Below, in pieces: positions 26,966 through 61,790 of a DNA stretch of 64,000 nucleotides. The stretch comes from Rhodoferax antarcticus ANT.BR (GTDB taxonomy: Bacteria; Pseudomonadota; Gammaproteobacteria; Burkholderiales; Burkholderiaceae_C). Position numbers and translations under genes: made by a program. The notes beneath the pieces were generated by a model, which did not search any database, had not been told where the DNA came from, and worked only from the letters and a program-made list of their open reading frames with translations. Where the stretch lies: positions 186,001 to 250,000 of the forward strand of contig NZ_MSYM01000017.1 in assembly GCF_001938565.1 (NCBI RefSeq). Reading direction: 5' to 3'. The first letter of the stretch is position 1. Each line of letters starts with the position of its first letter.

Positions 26966-27727
26966 TCACAGCAAGGCAAGTGGGGGCGGGTTTTTAACAC
27001 ACGCAACGGTCGTCGAACCAGACACAACCTGCAGGTCGGCAGCGCCAAGAGCAGATGCCAGTGCGGCGCGCACTGGCGCAAAGGTCTTGCGGTGCAAGGG
27101 GCTAGCCCCTGCAGACTGCAAAGCCGCCAGATGCTGCGCTGTGCCATAGCCCTTGTGCTGTGCAAAACCGTAGGCCGGGTAAGCGGTCGCCACCTCATCA
27201 CACCAGCGGTCGCGCGACACCTTGGCCAAGATGGACGCGGCTGAAATTGCCGCAATCAGCGCGTCGCCCTTGACGATGGCCTGCGCGCGCATGGGCAGCA
27301 CCGGCAGACGGTTGCCGTCGACCAGCACCAGCTTGGGTGCCAGGCGCAACCCTTCCACGGCGCGGCGCATGGCCAGCAGCGTGGCTTGCAGAATGTTGAG
27401 CTGGTCAATCTCCTCCACGCTCGCCTGGGCCACCGCAAAACACAGGGCTTTGGCACGAATTTCGTCAAACAGGCGCTCACGTTTAAGAGCGGAGAGTTGT
27501 TTGGAATCCGCCAAACCCGCAATCGGGTGCAGGTCGTCCAGAATCACCGCTGCGGCCATCACCGGCCCGGCCAGCGGACCACGACCCGCCTCGTCCACCC
27601 CAGCAACCAAGCCATTGACACCCCATTGCAGGGCTACCTGCTGCATGCTGGCTTGCCTGGCGCGCCGCGCTTTCACGGATTTGCCCAGCGCACGCGGCTT
27701 AAGCTTGGAGGACGGTAGCGATGGCAT
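26966..27727 (-). CDS. rnhB: Ribonuclease HII
   Basis: It cleaves RNA in RNA-DNA hybrids and single ribonucleotides in DNA. The [11 protein letters not shown] signature is at 45-55 (D45, E46), and later acidic residues lie in VDGNR and [10 protein letters not shown]. From ATG 27727 the product has 253 residues and overlaps the end of lpxB by 29 bp. ATG 27646 is an alternative and gives 226 residues. Order lpxA-lpxB-rnhB is as in E. coli. Confidence 0.92.
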
Positions 27728-28865
27728 GGGCGGCAAGGGTCGGGGTGTCGCGCTGCAACTCGGCGTGCAGCGCGGTAAAACGTTGTTCAAGCCGCTGTAT
27801 TTTCGCAGGGTCTTGGGCAGATGCATCCAGCCAGGCCAACACTTCTTTAGCCAGCGCCTGCGGTGTGGCGGCATCCTGCAACAGTTCGGGTACCACAAAG
27901 TCGCGGCACAAGATGTTGGGCAGGCCCACCCAGGGCTGCAGCTTCTTGCGCCGCATGATTTGCCACGACATGGCGCTCATGCGGTAGGCAATCACCATCG
28001 GCCGCTTGAACAGCGCCGCCTCCAACGTGGCGGTGCCGCTGGCGATGAGCGTGACATCGCACGCGCCCAGCACGGTGTGCGACTGCCCTTGCACCACGCG
28101 CAAGGCAGCGCCCACGCCACTGGCAGCGGCTGCCGCCTCAATGCGCGGGCGTAGCGCCGGTATGGCAGGAACTATGAATTGAATAGCTGGTCGCGCTTGT
28201 CCTATAAGGGCTGCGGCCTGAAATAACACATCAACCAGATGCCTCACTTCAGACTCACGACTGCCGGGCAGGATCGCCACCACCGGGTCATCTGGCCGCA
28301 ATCCCAGCTTGGCACGCGCCTGCGCCCGGTCTGGCTGCATCGGAATCACATTGGCCAGCGGATGCCCCACATAGGTGGCGGCAATGCCATGCTGCGCGAG
28401 CAGCTCAGGCTCAAACGGAAAGATGCACAACACATGGTCAACGCTGCGCTTGATTTTCTCCAGCCGCTCGGGCCGCCAAGCCCAGACGGATGGGCAAACA
28501 AAATGAACAGTCTTGATGCCCTGCGCTTTGAGAGCCGCTTCCAGATCAAGATTGAAATCCGGTGCATCCACGCCAATGAACACGTCGGGCTTGTACGCCA
28601 GCAAGCGGTTTTTCAGCTGGGTGCGTATGCCAACGATCTCACGGTAACGGCGCAGCACCTCCCAGCCAAAACCGTGCACCGACAACTTGTCGTGCGGCCA
28701 CCAGGCCTGAAAGCCGCGCTTGGCCATTTGCGGGCCGCCAATGCCCACACTGTGCAGCTCGGGCCAACGGGTACGCATGCCGTCAAGCAGCAAACCCGCC
28801 AGCAGATCGCCAGAGGTTTCACCTGCGACCAGTGCCGCGTTGAGCACTTTCTCAGCTTTCAACAT
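27699..28865 (-). CDS. lpxB: Lipid-A-disaccharide synthase
   Basis: This glycosyltransferase joins lipid X to UDP-diacylglucosamine to make the lipid A disaccharide. The 388-residue protein contains the [13 protein letters not shown] start, [22 protein letters not shown] and [12 protein letters not shown] 28865 is chosen; the frame continues upstream into a stem-loop element. An in-frame repeat A copy encodes part of the interdomain region near residues 214-232 ([14 protein letters not shown]). Confidence 0.96.
28171..28226 (+). repeat. Dispersed repeat A inside lpxB
   Basis: The plus strand reads AATTGAATAGCTGGTCGCGC, then CCTATAAGGGCTGCGGCC. It is antisense to lpxB and keeps the frame open. 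Confidence 0.65.
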
Positions 28866-28875
28866 GCGTCTAGCG

Positions 28876-28945
28876 AGGTAGGGACTCTGGGCGGCTGACG
28901 ATTTCTGGTACCCCAGTATGAGCAAGCCGCCCAGAGTCCCTGCCT
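28876..28945 (+). repeat. Conserved-loop, variable-stem hairpin, copy 1
   Basis: Arms at 28876-28895 and 28926-28945 are complementary over 20 bases with one mismatch. The 30-base interior (28896-28925) contains TTTCTGGTACCCCAGTATG, shared with the copies at 59376-59436 and 59586-59655, while the outer stem sequence is different in each. It fills most of the 129-bp lpxA-lpxB spacer. Confidence 0.85.
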
Positions 28946-28994
28946 TGCAGGTTCAGAGCGCAAACGCCTGGATCGGCAAAACACGCCAACAACC

Positions 28995-29789
28995 TCACCG
29001 AACAATGCCACGCTGCGGCGATGTCTGCTGCAGGAATGAGAGCATCATCTGCACGTCTGGTATGGACTCAGGGTGGTTTTCGCTTAAACCGGCAATGCGC
29101 TCCATAGCCACCTGTAACGTCAGGTCATCCCGGTACAGCGCCTTGTGCATGGCCTTCACGGCCGCGATTCGCTCCGGCGAAAACCCCCGGCGGCGCAGAC
29201 CCTCAAAATTCATCGAGCGTGCCGCAGCGGGCTGCCCTTGGCACATGACAAACGGTGGCAAGTCGGCAAAAAGCAGCGTACACATGGCGGTCATGCTGTG
29301 CGCACCAATGCGCACAAACTGGTGCACCACGGTAAAGCCGCCAAAAATGGCCCAATCGCCCACATGCACGTGGCCTGCAAGCTGGGTGTTGTTGGCAAAA
29401 ATCGTGTTGTTGCCGACCTGGCAGTCATGCGCCAGATGCACATAAGCCATCAACCAGTTGTCGTCACCGACACGGGTCACGCCCACATCACCGGGCGAGC
29501 CGATGTTGAAGGTACAAAACTCGCGGATGGTGTTGCGGTTGCCAATGACCAGCTCACACGGCTCGCCGGCGTATTTTTTATCTTGCGGAATCGCCCCGAG
29601 TGAGGCGAACTGGAAGATGCGGTTGTCGCAGCCGATGGTGGTGTGGCCTTCAATGACCACATGCGGGCCCACGGTGGTTGCGGCACCAACCTTGACGTTT
29701 GGCCCAATAACGCTATAGGGCCCGACACTGACTGAGCTGTCTAACTCGGCCTGCGGGTCAACGATGGCGGTGGCGTGGATGGCAGTCAC
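28995..29789 (-). CDS. lpxA: UDP-N-acetylglucosamine acyltransferase
   Basis: First step of lipid A synthesis: transfer of a hydroxyacyl chain from ACP to UDP-GlcNAc. The 264-residue protein has a left-handed beta-helix of hexapeptide repeats in its first 190 residues and the catalytic histidine H121 in VHLAHDC. It starts 10 bp after fabZ ends. Confidence 0.97.
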
Positions 29790-56838: not shown

Positions 56839-59241
56839 TTACAGCACCCGACTCACGCGCTGCGGCTTAAAGCCCAGGTCGGCGAGCTTGCCTTTACGGC
56901 CACGCACCGCGCGGGCATTGTTCAGGCTGCGGATCTCCAGGGTTTCCTCGCGCGGTTTGCCGCTTCTGCCCAGCCCTTCGATGCTGACGCTGCGGATGTA
57001 GGCGCAAGCCCCCGCCAGCGTGTCTTTGTCTTCCAGGTCAATCAGCATCAGGCCACGCCCGCCGTTGGGCATGGTGCGCAACTCACTGAGCTCAAAGCTC
57101 AGAATGCGCCCACCGGTTGACGCACAGGCCACATGGCTGGCTGCGGGCAGCGGCACCGAGCCAGCGTCGCAAACCACCACCGAAGGCGCGCACAGGGTTT
57201 CGCCCGCATTGACCGTCACAAATGCCTTGCCCGCCTTGAACTTGGATGTCATCTGCTCGACCGTTGCCATGAAGCCATAGCCGCCCGAACTGCACAGCAG
57301 CAAGCTGGCACTGGCTGGACCGGCAAAGTAGTAGAGCAGTTGTGTCCCGGCCTCCAGCTCGATCAGGCTGGTGATGGGTTGACCGTCGCCGCGGCCACCG
57401 GGCAGCAGTGACAGCGGCACCGAATACACCCGTCCGTTGGAGCCAAAGGCCAGCAGGGTGTCCACGGTGCGGCATTCAAAGCTGCCGTACAGCGCGTCGC
57501 CGGCCTTGAAGGTGAAGTCGGCAGGTGTGGCGCTGCTGGTGCCATTGGTTGCGGCTGCGGCGACCTTGTCCTTGGCCCAGCCTTTTTGCGCACGCACCCA
57601 GCCTTTTTGACTGACGACCACGGTGACGGGCTCGTCCACCACTTTGACTTCAAGAACCACTTTCTTTTCAGCCTGGATCAACGTGCGGCGCGGGTCGGCA
57701 AAGGTTTTGGCATCAAGCTCGATTTCCTTGATCATCAGGCGGCGCAATGTGGCCGGGCTGCCCAGAATCTCTTCCAGCTTTTGCCGCTCAGTGCGCAGCG
57801 TGCTAAGTTCCTGCTCAATCTTGATGGCTTCCAGCCGGGCCAATTGGCGCAGGCGGATTTCGAGAATGTCTTCAGCTTGGGCGGAGGACAGCTTGAAGCG
57901 CTCGATCAGCGCCGCCTTCGGGTCGTCCGCCTGGCGGATGATGGCGATCACCTCGTCAATATTGAGCAGCACCAGCGCCCGGCCCTCCAGGATGTGGATG
58001 CGCTCCAGCACCTTGTTCAGCCGATGGCGCGAACGCCGCTCAATGGTGGTTTGGCGAAACGCAATCCACTCGGTGAACATCTGGCGCAGCGACTTTTGCG
58101 TGGGCCGGCCATCCAGACCGATCATGGTCAGGTTGATTGGGCTGCTGGTCTCCAGGCTGGTATGGGCCAGCAGTGTATTGATCAGCTCCTGCTGGCTGAT
58201 GCGGCTGGTTTTGGGCTCACACACCAAGCGCACAGCCGCGTCCTTGCTGGACTCGTCGCGCACGCCGTCCAGCACCGACAGCAGCGTGGCCTTGAGCTGG
58301 TTTTGCTCCAGGCTCAAGGCCTTCTTGCCCGCCTTCACCTTGGGGTTGCTGATGTCTTCGATTTCTTCGAGCACGCGCTGGGTGCTGACGCCGGGCGGCA
58401 ATTCGGTCACCACCAGTTGCCACTGGCCGCGCGCCAGGTCTTCAATCTTCCAGCGCGCACGGCATTTGAGGGAGCCGCGACCGCTGCGGTAGGCATCGGC
58501 AATGTCGCCCGCGCTGCTGATGATCTGGCCGCCGCCGGGGTAGTCCGGGCCGGGCACCAACGCGAACAACTCGTCTTCAGTGAGCGTGGGTGACTTGATC
58601 AGCGCCACGCAGGCATCGGCCACTTCGCGCAGGTTGTGGCTGGGGATTTCAGTGGCCAAACCGACTGCAATGCCGCTGGCACCGTTAAGCAGCGCAAACG
58701 GCAGGCGTGCGGGTAACCGGCGCGGTTCTTCGGTTGAGCCATCGTAATTGGGGGTGAAATCGACCGTGCCTTCGTCGATTTCGTCGAGCAGCAGGCTGGT
58801 GATTTTCGCCAGCCGTGCTTCGGTGTAACGCATGGCAGCAGCACCGTCGCCGTCCCGGGAGCCAAAGTTGCCCTGGCCGTCAATCAGCGGGTAGCGCTGC
58901 GAAAAGTCCTGCGCCATGCGCACCAGCGCGTCATACGCGGCGCTGTCGCCGTGCGGGTGGTAGCGCCCCAGCACATCGCCCACCACGCGCGCACACTTGA
59001 CCGGCTTGGCGCCGACGTTGCCATTGGTCCCGCCAAAGCCCAGGCCCATGCGCGACATGGCGTAAAGAATGCGCCGCTGCACCGGCTTTTGGCCGTCGCA
59101 CACATCGGGCAAGGCGCGGCCCTTGACCACGCTCAGGGCGTACTCAAGGTAGGCGCGCTGGGCATAGCTGGCCAGATTCAGCTCGTCGTCACTGCCTGGT
59201 TCTGAAGGCGTCAGCAAATCAATGATGGGTTGGTCGGTCAT
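56839..59241 (-). CDS. parC: DNA topoisomerase IV, subunit A
   Basis: It decatenates chromosomes with ParE. The 800-residue protein has the catalytic Y139 ([10 protein letters not shown]). The quinolone region [18 protein letters not shown] keeps the usual Ser (S100) and Asp (D104). The N-terminus [22 protein letters not shown], quoted here in part, favours ParC over GyrA, and parE follows on the same strand side. The C-terminal pinwheel is present. Confidence 0.94.
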
Positions 59242-59375
59242 AAGTCAGTCGATTGAATTTTTTTGAATAGTTGGGGCTAGACGCTGCTTCGGTGACGGTC
59301 GTCAGTTAGCGAGTTGCTGTCGGTGTACTTCTGAATGTTCTTTGTCTGGTGGCCTGTTGGTCAGCGCTACGCCGC

Positions 59376-59436
59376 AAGGGGTATGGGGGCTTTCTCATAC
59401 TGGAGTACCAGAAATCGTCAGCCGCCCATACCCCTT
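59376..59436 (-). repeat. Conserved-loop, variable-stem hairpin, copy 2
   Basis: Arms AAGGGGTATGGGGGC (59376-59390) and GCCGCCCATACCCCTT (59421-59436) are complementary apart from one extra base. On the minus strand the loop reads TGACGATTTCTGGTACTCC, then AGTATGAGAA, as in copy 1 with few changes. Confidence 0.85.
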
Positions 59437-59585
59437 ACTGCTTCGAGTGTGTGGTGGGCATAGTCTCAATGCACTGAAGGCACGACCCGAAAAACATGCT
59501 TGAAGTGCCTGCGCTGGAAGGTGCTGGTCTTTGGAAACTATTAAATGTCTTGGCTTTAGAGGCACGTCGCAAACCGATCGTCGCG

Positions 59586-59655
59586 CAGTGGCCGGATTTG
59601 GCGGGCGACAATTTCTGGTACCCCAGTATGCGGAGCCCGCCAAATCCGGCCGCTG
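59586..59655 (+). repeat. Conserved-loop, variable-stem hairpin, copy 3
   Basis: Arms at 59586-59605 and 59635-59655 pair over about 20 bases with one G-T. The stem sequence (GGCCGGATTTGGCGGGC) is unrelated to the other copies except next to the loop. The loop holds TTTCTGGTACCCCAGTATG. Confidence 0.85.
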
Positions 59656-59755
59656 TGCAGCGCACACCAAAACCGTACCCAAGCGTTCCAGCAGCTCAAG
59701 CAACGCGAAAAGCACCACCCTCTCAAACATCAAACGCCACCCAGCCAAAACAAAA

Positions 59756-59821
59756 TTTCATATAAGAAATAAGCCTCTAGCCCTTATGCAATAAGCGCAA
59801 GCAGCTATAAAAATAGAAGCT
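59756..59821 (-). repeat. Dispersed repeat A after parE
   Basis: On the minus strand it reads ATAGCTGCTTGCGCTTATT, then GCATAAGGGCTAGAGGC, then TTATTTCTTATATGAAA. It is very close to the copy at 45081-45148. Confidence 0.85.
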
Positions 59822-61790
59822 AAATATCCACCTCTACTGAATCCCCATGCAGTTCCATCAACTCGCGCCGGGCAGCGGCTTCCCCCTTGCCCATCAGTTT
59901 GGTCATCAGCGCCGAGGTCTGCGCAAAATCTATCGCACCCAAGTGCACTGGCAGCAAACGGCGGGTGTCGGGGTTCAGCGTGGTGTCCCACAACTGCTCG
60001 GCGTTCATCTCACCCAGGCCCTTGAAGCGGCTGATGCTCCAGGCGCCCTCGCGCACACCTTCCTTGCGCAGTTTGTCCAGAATCGCCGTCAACTCACCGT
60101 CATCCAGCGCATAGGCCTTGGACGCGGGCTTCTTGCCACGCGCCGGCGCGTCCACCCGAAACAGCGGCGGACGCGCCACAAAAATGTGCCCCGCATCCAC
60201 CAGCTTGGGAAAGTGTTTGAAAAATAGCGTGAGCAGCAGCACCTGAATGTGCGAGCCATCCACATCAGCATCACTCAGGATACAAATCTTGCCGTAACGC
60301 AGGCCGCTCAGGTCGGGCGTGTCATTGGGGCCATGCGGGTCCACACCGATAGCCACAGAAATATCGTGAATTTCGTTGTTGGCAAACAGCCGGTCGCGCT
60401 CGACCTCCCAGGTGTTGAGCACTTTGCCGCGCAACGGCAGCACCGCCTGGCTTTCCTTGTTGCGACCCATCTTGGCGCTGCCACCGGCGGAGTCGCCTTC
60501 TACCAGAAACACCTCGTTCTCGGTGATGTCGCGGCTTTCGCAGTCGGTCAGCTTGCCTGGCAACACCGCCACACCCGAGCCCTTGCGCTTTTCGACCTTC
60601 TGGCCGGCTTTCTGACGGCTTTGCGCGGCTTTGATAGCGAGTTCGGCCAGTTTTTTGCCGTGCTCCACGTTCTGGTTCAGCCACAACTCCAGCGCTGGGC
60701 GCACAAAGCTCGACACCAGCCGCACCGCGTCACGCGAATTGAGGCGCTCCTTGATCTGGCCCTGAAACTGCGGGTCCAGCACCTTGGTGGACAGCACATA
60801 GCTGGCGCGCGCAAACACATCATCGGGCAACAGCTTGACGCCTTTGGGCAGCAGCGAATGGAGTTCCACAAAACTTTTCACCGCCGTAAACAGCCCGTCA
60901 CGCAGACCGGACTCATGCGTGCCGCCCGCGGTGGTGGGAATCAGGTTGACATAGCTTTCCCGCACTGGCTGGCCGTCTTCGGTGAAGGCCACGCACCAGG
61001 CAGCGCCTTCTCCGTCGGCAAAACTGTCGTGCTGGGCATCGGCAAAACCTTCGCCTTCCAGCACCGGAATGATCGGCTCACCCGCCAGGGTTTGCGTCAG
61101 GTAGTCACGCAGGCCGCCCTTGAACACCCAGGTTTGGGCTTCTTTGGTCTTTTCCTGTAGCAGCGACACCGTCACACCAGGCATCAGCACCGCCTTGCTG
61201 CGCAGCAGGTGTTCCAAATGGGCCATCGGCAAGGTCATCGACTCGAAATATTTGGCGTCTGGCCAGACGCGCACCAGCGTGCCGCTACGGCGCTCGCCGT
61301 CGCCTGCAGGGCGCACGGTCAGGGGCTCAATCACATCACCGCCCGAAAACACCAGCCGCGCCACCTGGTTTTCACGGTAAGTGGTGGCTTCGAGCCGGGT
61401 GCTCAACGCGTTGGTCACACTCACACCCACGCCATGCAAGCCGCCAGAAAAGCTGTAGGCACCGCCCTTGCCCTTGTCAAACTTGCCACCGGCGTGCAAC
61501 TGGGTAAACACCAGTTCGATCACCGGCGCGTTCTCGGTCGGGTGCAGGCCAAACGGGATGCCGCGGCCATCGTCTTCGATGCTGACTGAGCCATCAACGT
61601 GCACCGTCACCTTGATTTTTTTGCCATGACCAGCCAGGGCTTCATCGGCGGCGTTGTCGAGCACTTCCTGGATGATGTGCATCGGGTTATCAGTGCGGGT
61701 GTACATGCCCGGGCGCTGTTTGACGGGCTCCAGCCCTTTCAACACGCGGATCGAGCCTTCAGAGTATTCGAGATTGGGTTTGGTTGCCAT
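59820..61790 (-). CDS. parE: DNA topoisomerase IV, subunit B
   Basis: The ATPase subunit. It has 656 residues: GHKL ATP site (EDDGRGIPFG), transducer domain, and TOPRIM with EGDSAGGSAKMGRNKESQA, PLRGKVLNTWE and ILSDADVDGSHIQ. The length and the PLRGKVLNTWEV variant fit ParE rather than GyrB. It lies upstream of parC on the same strand. Confidence 0.95.
   Translation of the reverse strand: MATKPNLEYSEGSIRVLKGLEPVKQRPGMYTRTDNPMHIIQEVLDNAADEALAGHGKKIKVTVHVDGSVSIEDDGRGIPFGLHPTENAPVIELVFTQLHAGGKFDKGKGGAYSFSGGLHGVGVSVTNALSTRLEATTYRENQVARLVFSGGDVIEPLTVRPAGDGERRSGTLVRVWPDAKYFESMTLPMAHLEHLLRSKAVLMPGVTVSLLQEKTKEAQTWVFKGGLRDYLTQTLAGEPIIPVLEGEGFADAQHDSFADGEGAAWCVAFTEDGQPVRESYVNLIPTTAGGTHESGLRDGLFTAVKSFVELHSLLPKGVKLLPDDVFARASYVLSTKVLDPQFQGQIKERLNSRDAVRLVSSFVRPALELWLNQNVEHGKKLAELAIKAAQSRQKAGQKVEKRKGSGVAVLPGKLTDCESRDITENEVFLVEGDSAGGSAKMGRNKESQAVLPLRGKVLNTWEVERDRLFANNEIHDISVAIGVDPHGPNDTPDLSGLRYGKICILSDADVDGSHIQVLLLTLFFKHFPKLVDAGHIFVARPPLFRVDAPARGKKPASKAYALDDGELTAILDKLRKEGVREGAWSISRFKGLGEMNAEQLWDTTLNPDTRRLLPVHLGAIDFAQTSALMTKLMGKGEAAARRELMELHGDSVEVDI

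Follow-up and report, generated by a model that had tools for sequence, protein, structure and literature searches.

A REPIN-like family of dispersed hairpins with sequence-free stems in the Comamonadaceae

Three hairpins in two intergenic gaps

The window, by which we mean the whole 64-kb stretch analyzed here (Rhodoferax antarcticus ANT.BR, contig NZ_MSYM01000017.1, positions 186,001 to 250,000), contains three hairpins that share a tip and differ in their stems. One lies between 2 genes of lipid A synthesis, and the other 2 lie together between the genes for topoisomerase IV. The hairpins and their neighbor genes are as follows.

27699..28865, minus strand: lpxB (lipid-A-disaccharide synthase); TIGR00215, over cut-off
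28873..28948, plus strand: hairpin 1, a single copy; 24-bp stem; 100.8 bits with the covariance model
28900..28921, plus strand: conserved tip of hairpin 1, GATTT / CTGG TACC CCAG / TATGA
28995..29789, minus strand: lpxA (acyl-ACP--UDP-GlcNAc O-acyltransferase); TIGR01852 and NF003657, over cut-off
56839..59241, minus strand: parC (topoisomerase IV subunit A); TIGR01062, over cut-off
59374..59438, minus strand: hairpin 2, left half of an inverted pair; 82.4 bits
59374..59658, no strand assigned: inverted-pair unit (hairpin 2, spacer, and hairpin 3) in the parC-parE gap
59583..59658, plus strand: hairpin 3, right half of the inverted pair; 24-bp stem; 96.8 bits
59820..61790, minus strand: parE-like (topoisomerase IV subunit B); TIGR01055 at 690 bits, under the cut-off of 723

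Hairpin 1 sits inside the 129-bp gap between lpxA and lpxB, a placement made in the first-pass annotation and borne out by open reading frames and family profiles. Its foot lies 7 bp away from the start codon of lpxB, and its tip strand is opposite to both genes. The 578-bp parC-parE gap holds hairpins 2 and 3, which together make up one inverted pair. Allowing up to 3 mismatches, the core TTTCTGGTACCCCAGTATG appears 3 times across the window, against 0.01 occurrences expected from shuffling. Folding is likewise far from that of shuffled sequences: RNA z-scores are -8.1 (minus strand) and -10.3 (plus strand) for hairpin 1, -6.4 (minus strand) for hairpin 2, and -7.9 (minus strand) and -8.8 (plus strand) for hairpin 3, and DNA z-scores are -8.8, -5.0, and -7.1 for hairpins 1, 2, and 3. 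By core count and folding, the initial observation of a shared tip on separate self-complementary stems holds far beyond chance. The stem had been put at 15 to 20 bp; it is about 24 bp, and copies are nearly equal in length. Hairpin 3 reads CAATTT in its tip, where most copies have GATTT.

The parC-parE gap also holds a second dispersed repeat of about 60 bp (59756-59822, ...AAGCCTCTAGCCCTTATGCAATAAGCGC...AGCTAT...), which adjoins the end of parE. It has matches at many places across the genus, and in the relative G055 repeats resembling it lie on both sides of the hairpin pair.

A conserved tip on a variable stem

In most copies, a 24-bp stem carries the nearly invariant tip GATTT-CTGG-TACC-CCAG-TATGA, where GATTT and TATGA form an internal loop around a CTGG/CCAG mini-hairpin; the tip reads GATTTCTG...CAGTATGAGG. 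Just below the tip, 118 of 238 hairpins have tandem G·A mismatches, 74 are paired, and 46 are mixed, and 30 of 72 neighboring pairs combine one tip of the G·A type with one of the paired type. The first reading held that only the loop and the adjoining bases are kept. The tip is indeed the conserved part, but the stem foot (GCG...CGC) is also partly conserved, and weak conservation extends past the foot for about 11 nt 5' of the stem and about 19 nt 3' of it (118 genus hairpins). Two subfamilies retain both GATTT and TATGA: one carries an insertion of 22 nt alongside the tip (3 copies from G055 and the lpx copy of G045; L255, L158), and the other has a different apical loop, CTG-GGCCTTTGA-CAG or CTG-CGCATTTGG-CAG (L258-L262).

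The claim that the stems vary and stay complementary came through a comparison of 18 copies from the same genome: 22 of 29 predicted pairs show, in at least 1 copy, a change on both sides with pairing kept. One of these copies (L003) has lost its right arm. Across 227 hairpins, 4831 of 5448 stem cells are Watson-Crick despite widely varying pair types. Among nearest-neighbor pairs of hairpins at most 4 nucleotides apart (n = 68), one-sided changes number 115 and two-sided changes 26, of which 13 are transversions. Stems change in single steps, often re-matched afterwards.

Occurrence in the Comamonadaceae

A letter-pattern search of the R. antarcticus genome, allowing up to 2 mismatches, gave 20 matches: 18 hairpins and 2 places without one (L017 and L018). 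The covariance model was built on these 18 hairpins. In the same 4.0-Mb genome it finds 24 hairpins at 19 places, as 5 pairs and 14 singles (32 rows, 8 of them being antisense hits to hairpins counted before). Hairpins are present in 45 of the 60 genomes of the genus, this one included. The covariance-model search over family genomes that had been proposed returned hairpins in 44 of 299 genomes, spread over 28 of the 141 genera sampled in the family (E <= 1e-6), and none of 40 genomes from other families of the order has a hairpin. An order-wide scan of 399 genomes, of low sensitivity with 9 candidates scored per genome, found 3 carriers, all in the same family. A pattern scan of named genomes gave at least 119 stretches; among the 80 matches listed, most belong to Rhodoferax, Limnohabitans, Polaromonas, and other Comamonadaceae or Betaproteobacteria, and a minority are chance-like matches in unrelated bacteria. 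The 3 window hairpins are thus members of a Comamonadaceae family of dispersed hairpins. This family keeps just its tip, length, and pairing, and ordinary similarity searches therefore detect little of it. Plasmids and phages gave no match to hairpin 1 as query, and viral contigs gave none to one exact pattern.

The hairpins lie mostly between co-directional genes (25 of 34 places; 4 divergent, 4 convergent, and 1 possibly inside an open reading frame). Gene context was assigned by a simple rule of open reading frames and GC3 for 18 of the 19 places in the R. antarcticus genome and 16 chosen pair loci of relatives.

Inverted pairs

Distinct hairpins within 500 bp of each other have one arrangement: 72 of 72 are in the order -/+, with the 5' flanks facing the spacer, although many of these loci were chosen because two matches lay together. 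Loci not chosen as pairs agree in 31 of 31 cases (sets of 3, 11, and 17), as do the 5 of 5 pairs in the R. antarcticus genome. Core distances within pairs are 107 to 283 bp (median 162), and at both ends the tip strand runs outward, with its 3' end outside. Of 65 listed pairs, 2 (L104 and L105) arise where a single hairpin overlaps its own antisense match. The spacer shows no conservation within the genus, unlike a freshly copied unit, which counts against the mechanism that we propose below.

Larger units occur in a Polaromonas-like genome (G163), where 11 align over about 236 bp, middle palindrome included. Six have unlike flanks on both sides; the other 5 share similarity past the right end, and 2 of these sit in a longer duplication. 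No target-site duplication was recognized by eye among the 11 units. Copies that stand alone, like the one at 28873-28948, probably represent halves or relics.

Within one genome, some copies of the 236-bp unit have their middle palindrome reversed (L114, L238, L240, L243). Separately, a DDE (IS5-like) transposase gene lies between 2 hairpins of G055 (L058, 405-1421). It was considered as the family's own enzyme and rejected, and we read it as an insertion sequence that landed in the spacer.

Presence and absence in relatives

Sites in relatives were compared for empty counterparts, as had been suggested. The lpx region was matched in 57 of the 60 genomes of the genus, and 30 were compared; 25 of these 30 have no hairpin in the lpxA-lpxB gap. 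The hairpin-free gaps are mostly short, with no palindrome visible by eye. The 5 carriers have one hairpin each (G000, G005, G045) or a pair (G013, G031). The flanking genes yield a tree in which the genomes with a single hairpin fall in a well-supported clade of 6 genomes together with the non-carriers G004, G055, and G024, and the 2 pair carriers are sisters; clustering of carriers on the lpx tree is not above that of shuffled labels (96 and 109 of 500 as low). Copies shared at this site differ by two-sided changes that keep pairing (1 for G000-G005, 2 for G000-G045, 2 for G005-G045, and 5 for G013-G031) and also by one-sided changes and by some unpaired ones.

The genomes with the parC-parE pair are G000, G055, and G045 (the pair of G045 being assigned to this gap solely by the parE and parC ends at its 2 sides); G004 has none. 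By eye, G004 has one copy of another repeat in the gap, where G055 has two, one on each side of its pair. Clean excision was considered for this difference and set aside: ragged losses, remnants, or recombination fit instead.

Hairpins inside REPINs

In Limnohabitans-type genomes, hairpins occupy the center of REPINs whose arms read GGGGTCAGATCAACATTAATTT and its reverse. Such nesting, a case of palindromic elements combining, involves 16 hairpins (15 by a stricter rule). The idea that the element enters existing palindromes is not supported at lpxA-lpxB, where no palindrome was seen by eye, but these REPINs do hold the hairpin at the center of another palindromic repeat. REPINs with the same arms and a different center also occur (L295, L314). 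The one at L314 4059-4140 measures 82 nt and has the shared outer arms around a bare palindromic center; it is either a deletion product or an empty carrier.

The arms match repeats that flank RAYT genes. In each of 9 Limnohabitans-type genomes, the single Y1_Tnp gene found has GGGGTCAGA repeats on both sides (9 of 9; L418-L426), and the longer arm that encloses hairpins flanks the RAYT gene, give or take a base, in 8 of 9. Seven of the 9 hold a nested hairpin at the examined locus, and in 7 of 7 that arm flanks the RAYT gene on both sides; the tip itself is near the RAYT gene in 0 of 9. Within the genus of the window, the GGGGTCAGA repeat lies downstream of 12 of 15 RAYT-like genes examined (L022, L023, L202-L214), and the window has none. 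The two RAYT-like proteins of the R. antarcticus genome score 81 and 71 bits, against an NCBIfam RAYT cut-off of 80. Host Y1_Tnp genes as neighbors of the hairpins were rejected for this genus: 0 of 32 have a hairpin within 1.5 kb. Some genomes have hairpin matches and no Y1_Tnp gene, both among those 69-86% complete (G040 with 26 matches, G042 with 18, G053 with 25) and among those 98% complete (G034 with 5, G054 with 2), and the reverse case also occurs in the genus.

Nested copies are nearly perfect in pairing and diverse in sequence. Of the 384 stem pairs in these 16 copies, 378 are Watson-Crick and the remainder are 2 G·T, 1 A·C, and 3 other; left-arm identity has a median of 0.62. Among 3 near-identical nested copies at L279, one mismatched state and two matched states are seen. 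Near-perfect arms with few intermediates point to copying from arm to arm, as the sequences of the REPIN-nested copies suggest, and the early proposal that one arm is copied from the other fits them. Older copies in the genus would then lose pairing slowly, with G·T tolerated.

Relation to known elements

REP palindromes have a conserved sequence, and REP-like repeats are usually recognized by that fixed sequence. The present hairpins differ: the stem of about 24 bp is not conserved in sequence, and the internal loop and tip are conserved instead. Their resemblance to the REPIN/RAYT system lies in the inverted doublets of short palindromes with a spacer, the intergenic location, the non-autonomous character, the predicted single-stranded DNA fold, and, in Limnohabitans-type genomes, the location inside REPINs whose arms flank a RAYT gene; the hairpins of the genus itself lack a link to a RAYT gene. 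REPINs are defined as doublets of repeats arranged as inverted repeats (PMC3116915), and canonical REPs have 5' GT[AG]G at the foot (PMC6006769). Base frequencies of 118 genus hairpins show no GT[AG]G at or outside the foot. A widespread REPIN-like hairpin family with sequence-free stems is real.

Likeness to miniature inverted-repeat transposable elements (MITEs) consists in short, dispersed, non-autonomous units with inverted ends, and inverted hairpins bound the unit in the 11 copies of G163. The differences are that the ends are themselves hairpins, that target duplication was not seen, and that the spacer is unconserved in the genus.

Integron attC sites are recombination sites read as a folded single strand, with a variable stem sequence and few fixed features. 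The variable stem and few fixed features of the hairpin family, with the proposed reading as a folded single strand, are alike.

The first-pass annotation knew no named family with this pattern. At gathering and E-value level, Rfam gave only weak matches, mostly to miRNA models and far below threshold, so that no Rfam family passes; there may, however, be an earlier description, the Beta-proteobacterial repeat element (BRE; Hot et al. 2011, PMC3110155). The hairpin family may overlap BRE. Full identity would be a matter of naming, compatible with any mechanism, and we hold it as a tentative idea. BRE is described as about 90 bp, GC-rich, and usually intergenic, with counts of 4 in Rhodoferax ferrireducens and 29 in Polaromonas JS666 and further counts in Delftia and Acidovorax (PMC3110155). 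Against identity, BRE copies are reported to be tandem in Bordetella (PMC3110155) and neighbors in the hairpin family are inverted in 72 of 72 cases; in addition, the model finds nothing outside the Comamonadaceae in the 399 genomes of the order, a low-sensitivity scan with uncertain coverage of Bordetella. A literature search for described repeats gave no candidate beyond BRE and a MITE described from Polaromonas JS666 (cited in PMC10969869), and 6 spellings of the core or its complement are not printed in the papers searched.

Wobble pairs suggest which strand folds

Each G·T pair on one strand corresponds to A·C on its complement, and equal numbers are therefore expected if the double strand is kept matched or a cruciform is selected. 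Counting both on one strand is a simple test of whether a palindrome is used as host RNA, as one of the two strands, or as duplex DNA, and it is applicable to other dispersed hairpins. On the tip strand of 227 hairpins we count 402 G·T, 35 A·C, 180 other mismatches, and 4831 Watson-Crick pairs; these 227 were kept of 256 by a selection that counted G·T as pairing, which favors G·T, and since copies are related the counts are not independent events. Hairpins found by letters alone give G·T:A·C ratios of 28:1 (14 hairpins) and 105:10 (66 hairpins) under a Watson-Crick-only rule that dropped 2 of 16 hairpins from the genome itself and 21 of 87 found by pattern. With none dropped, the letter-found set of the R. 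antarcticus genome has 31 G·T and 3 A·C; the letter rule misses 2 of its 18 hairpins, window hairpin 3 included, as well as 3 of the 36 that enter the sense/antisense comparison below. Recent one-sided differences between near neighbors are biased as well (159 G·T, 10 A·C, and 60 other). Mutation bias should not produce the excess, because hairpins lie in both orientations.

Pairs between co-directional genes separate the tip strand from the host transcript. Their G·T:A·C counts are 38:0 in 17 sense members and 25:0 in 16 antisense members. The bias is present in antisense members too, and the selected fold therefore seems to be that of the tip strand in single-stranded form, not that of the host mRNA. 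We read the tip strand as folding single-stranded regardless of host transcription, as single-stranded DNA during movement or replication; an outward small RNA is less likely. The early suggestion of strong selection on RNA structure is half sustained: the strand-biased wobble supports selection on a folded structure, and mRNA structure in the lpx operon is probably not its object.

Proposed mechanism and alternatives

We propose that the family is a non-autonomous mobile hairpin, REPIN-like, recognized as folded single-stranded DNA by a putative enzyme, and we give this reading a probability of roughly 55%. The enzyme would bind the tip within the folded strand and move the unit. The stem would drift because only its shape is read, and its arms may stay matched because non-pairing copies are lost and because each arm can serve as template for its partner. 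We are less confident that the enzyme is a RAYT-type (HUH, Y1) transposase working in trans, though this appears likely for hairpins carried within RAYT REPINs. Several results weigh against the proposal: Y1_Tnp genes of the genus have no hairpin and RAYT genes of Limnohabitans-type genomes no tip close by, 5 hairpin-bearing genomes of the genus show no Y1_Tnp gene, spacers are unconserved, no target-site duplication was recognized by eye, the losses in G004 are ragged, and carriers do not cluster on the lpx tree beyond shuffled labels.

A bolder version is conceivable, though we would sooner bet against it. Here the tip would be a self-contained single-stranded DNA address label, moved by a putative enzyme among palindromic carriers, and a stem read for shape alone would be rewritten arm to arm at each move. 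The carriers would be paired hairpins in Rhodoferax, three-armed 236-bp units in Polaromonas, and RAYT REPINs in Limnohabitans.

Among alternatives to mobile single-stranded DNA, one holds that each hairpin has its own promoter and yields an outward small RNA whose fold is selected. Such RNAs would account for a strand bias independent of host genes, and an 80-nt transcript, BprJ1, is described at a Bordetella BRE copy (PMC3110155), a precedent conditional on BRE being the hairpin family. Upstream, however, there is no conserved promoter-like block, and information is near zero more than about 11 nt outside the 5' foot (118 hairpins); we regard small RNAs as improbable.

Slightly less probable still is a structured mRNA element (an attenuator, terminator, or processing or stability element) selected in each operon. 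The prevalence of places between co-directional genes, the very stable RNA folds, and the strong covariation all suit it. The orientation of the hairpins does not: members of a pair point opposite ways, so that one is always antisense, and antisense members show the same bias (G·T:A·C 25:0). Among unpaired copies of the R. antarcticus genome between co-directional genes, 3 of 7 are antisense, the lpx copy included, and the lpx operon lacks the element in 25 of the 30 genomes compared.

The least credible alternative dispenses with selection and has the arms identical solely through DNA-level correction (template switching at quasipalindromes), which the near-perfect nested arms, the matched and mismatched states at L279, and the 13 two-sided transversions between close neighbors would suit, but which predicts equal G·T and A·C against the observed 402:35, 105:10, and 28:1 and sits poorly with the excess of one-sided over two-sided changes at short distance (115 vs 26).
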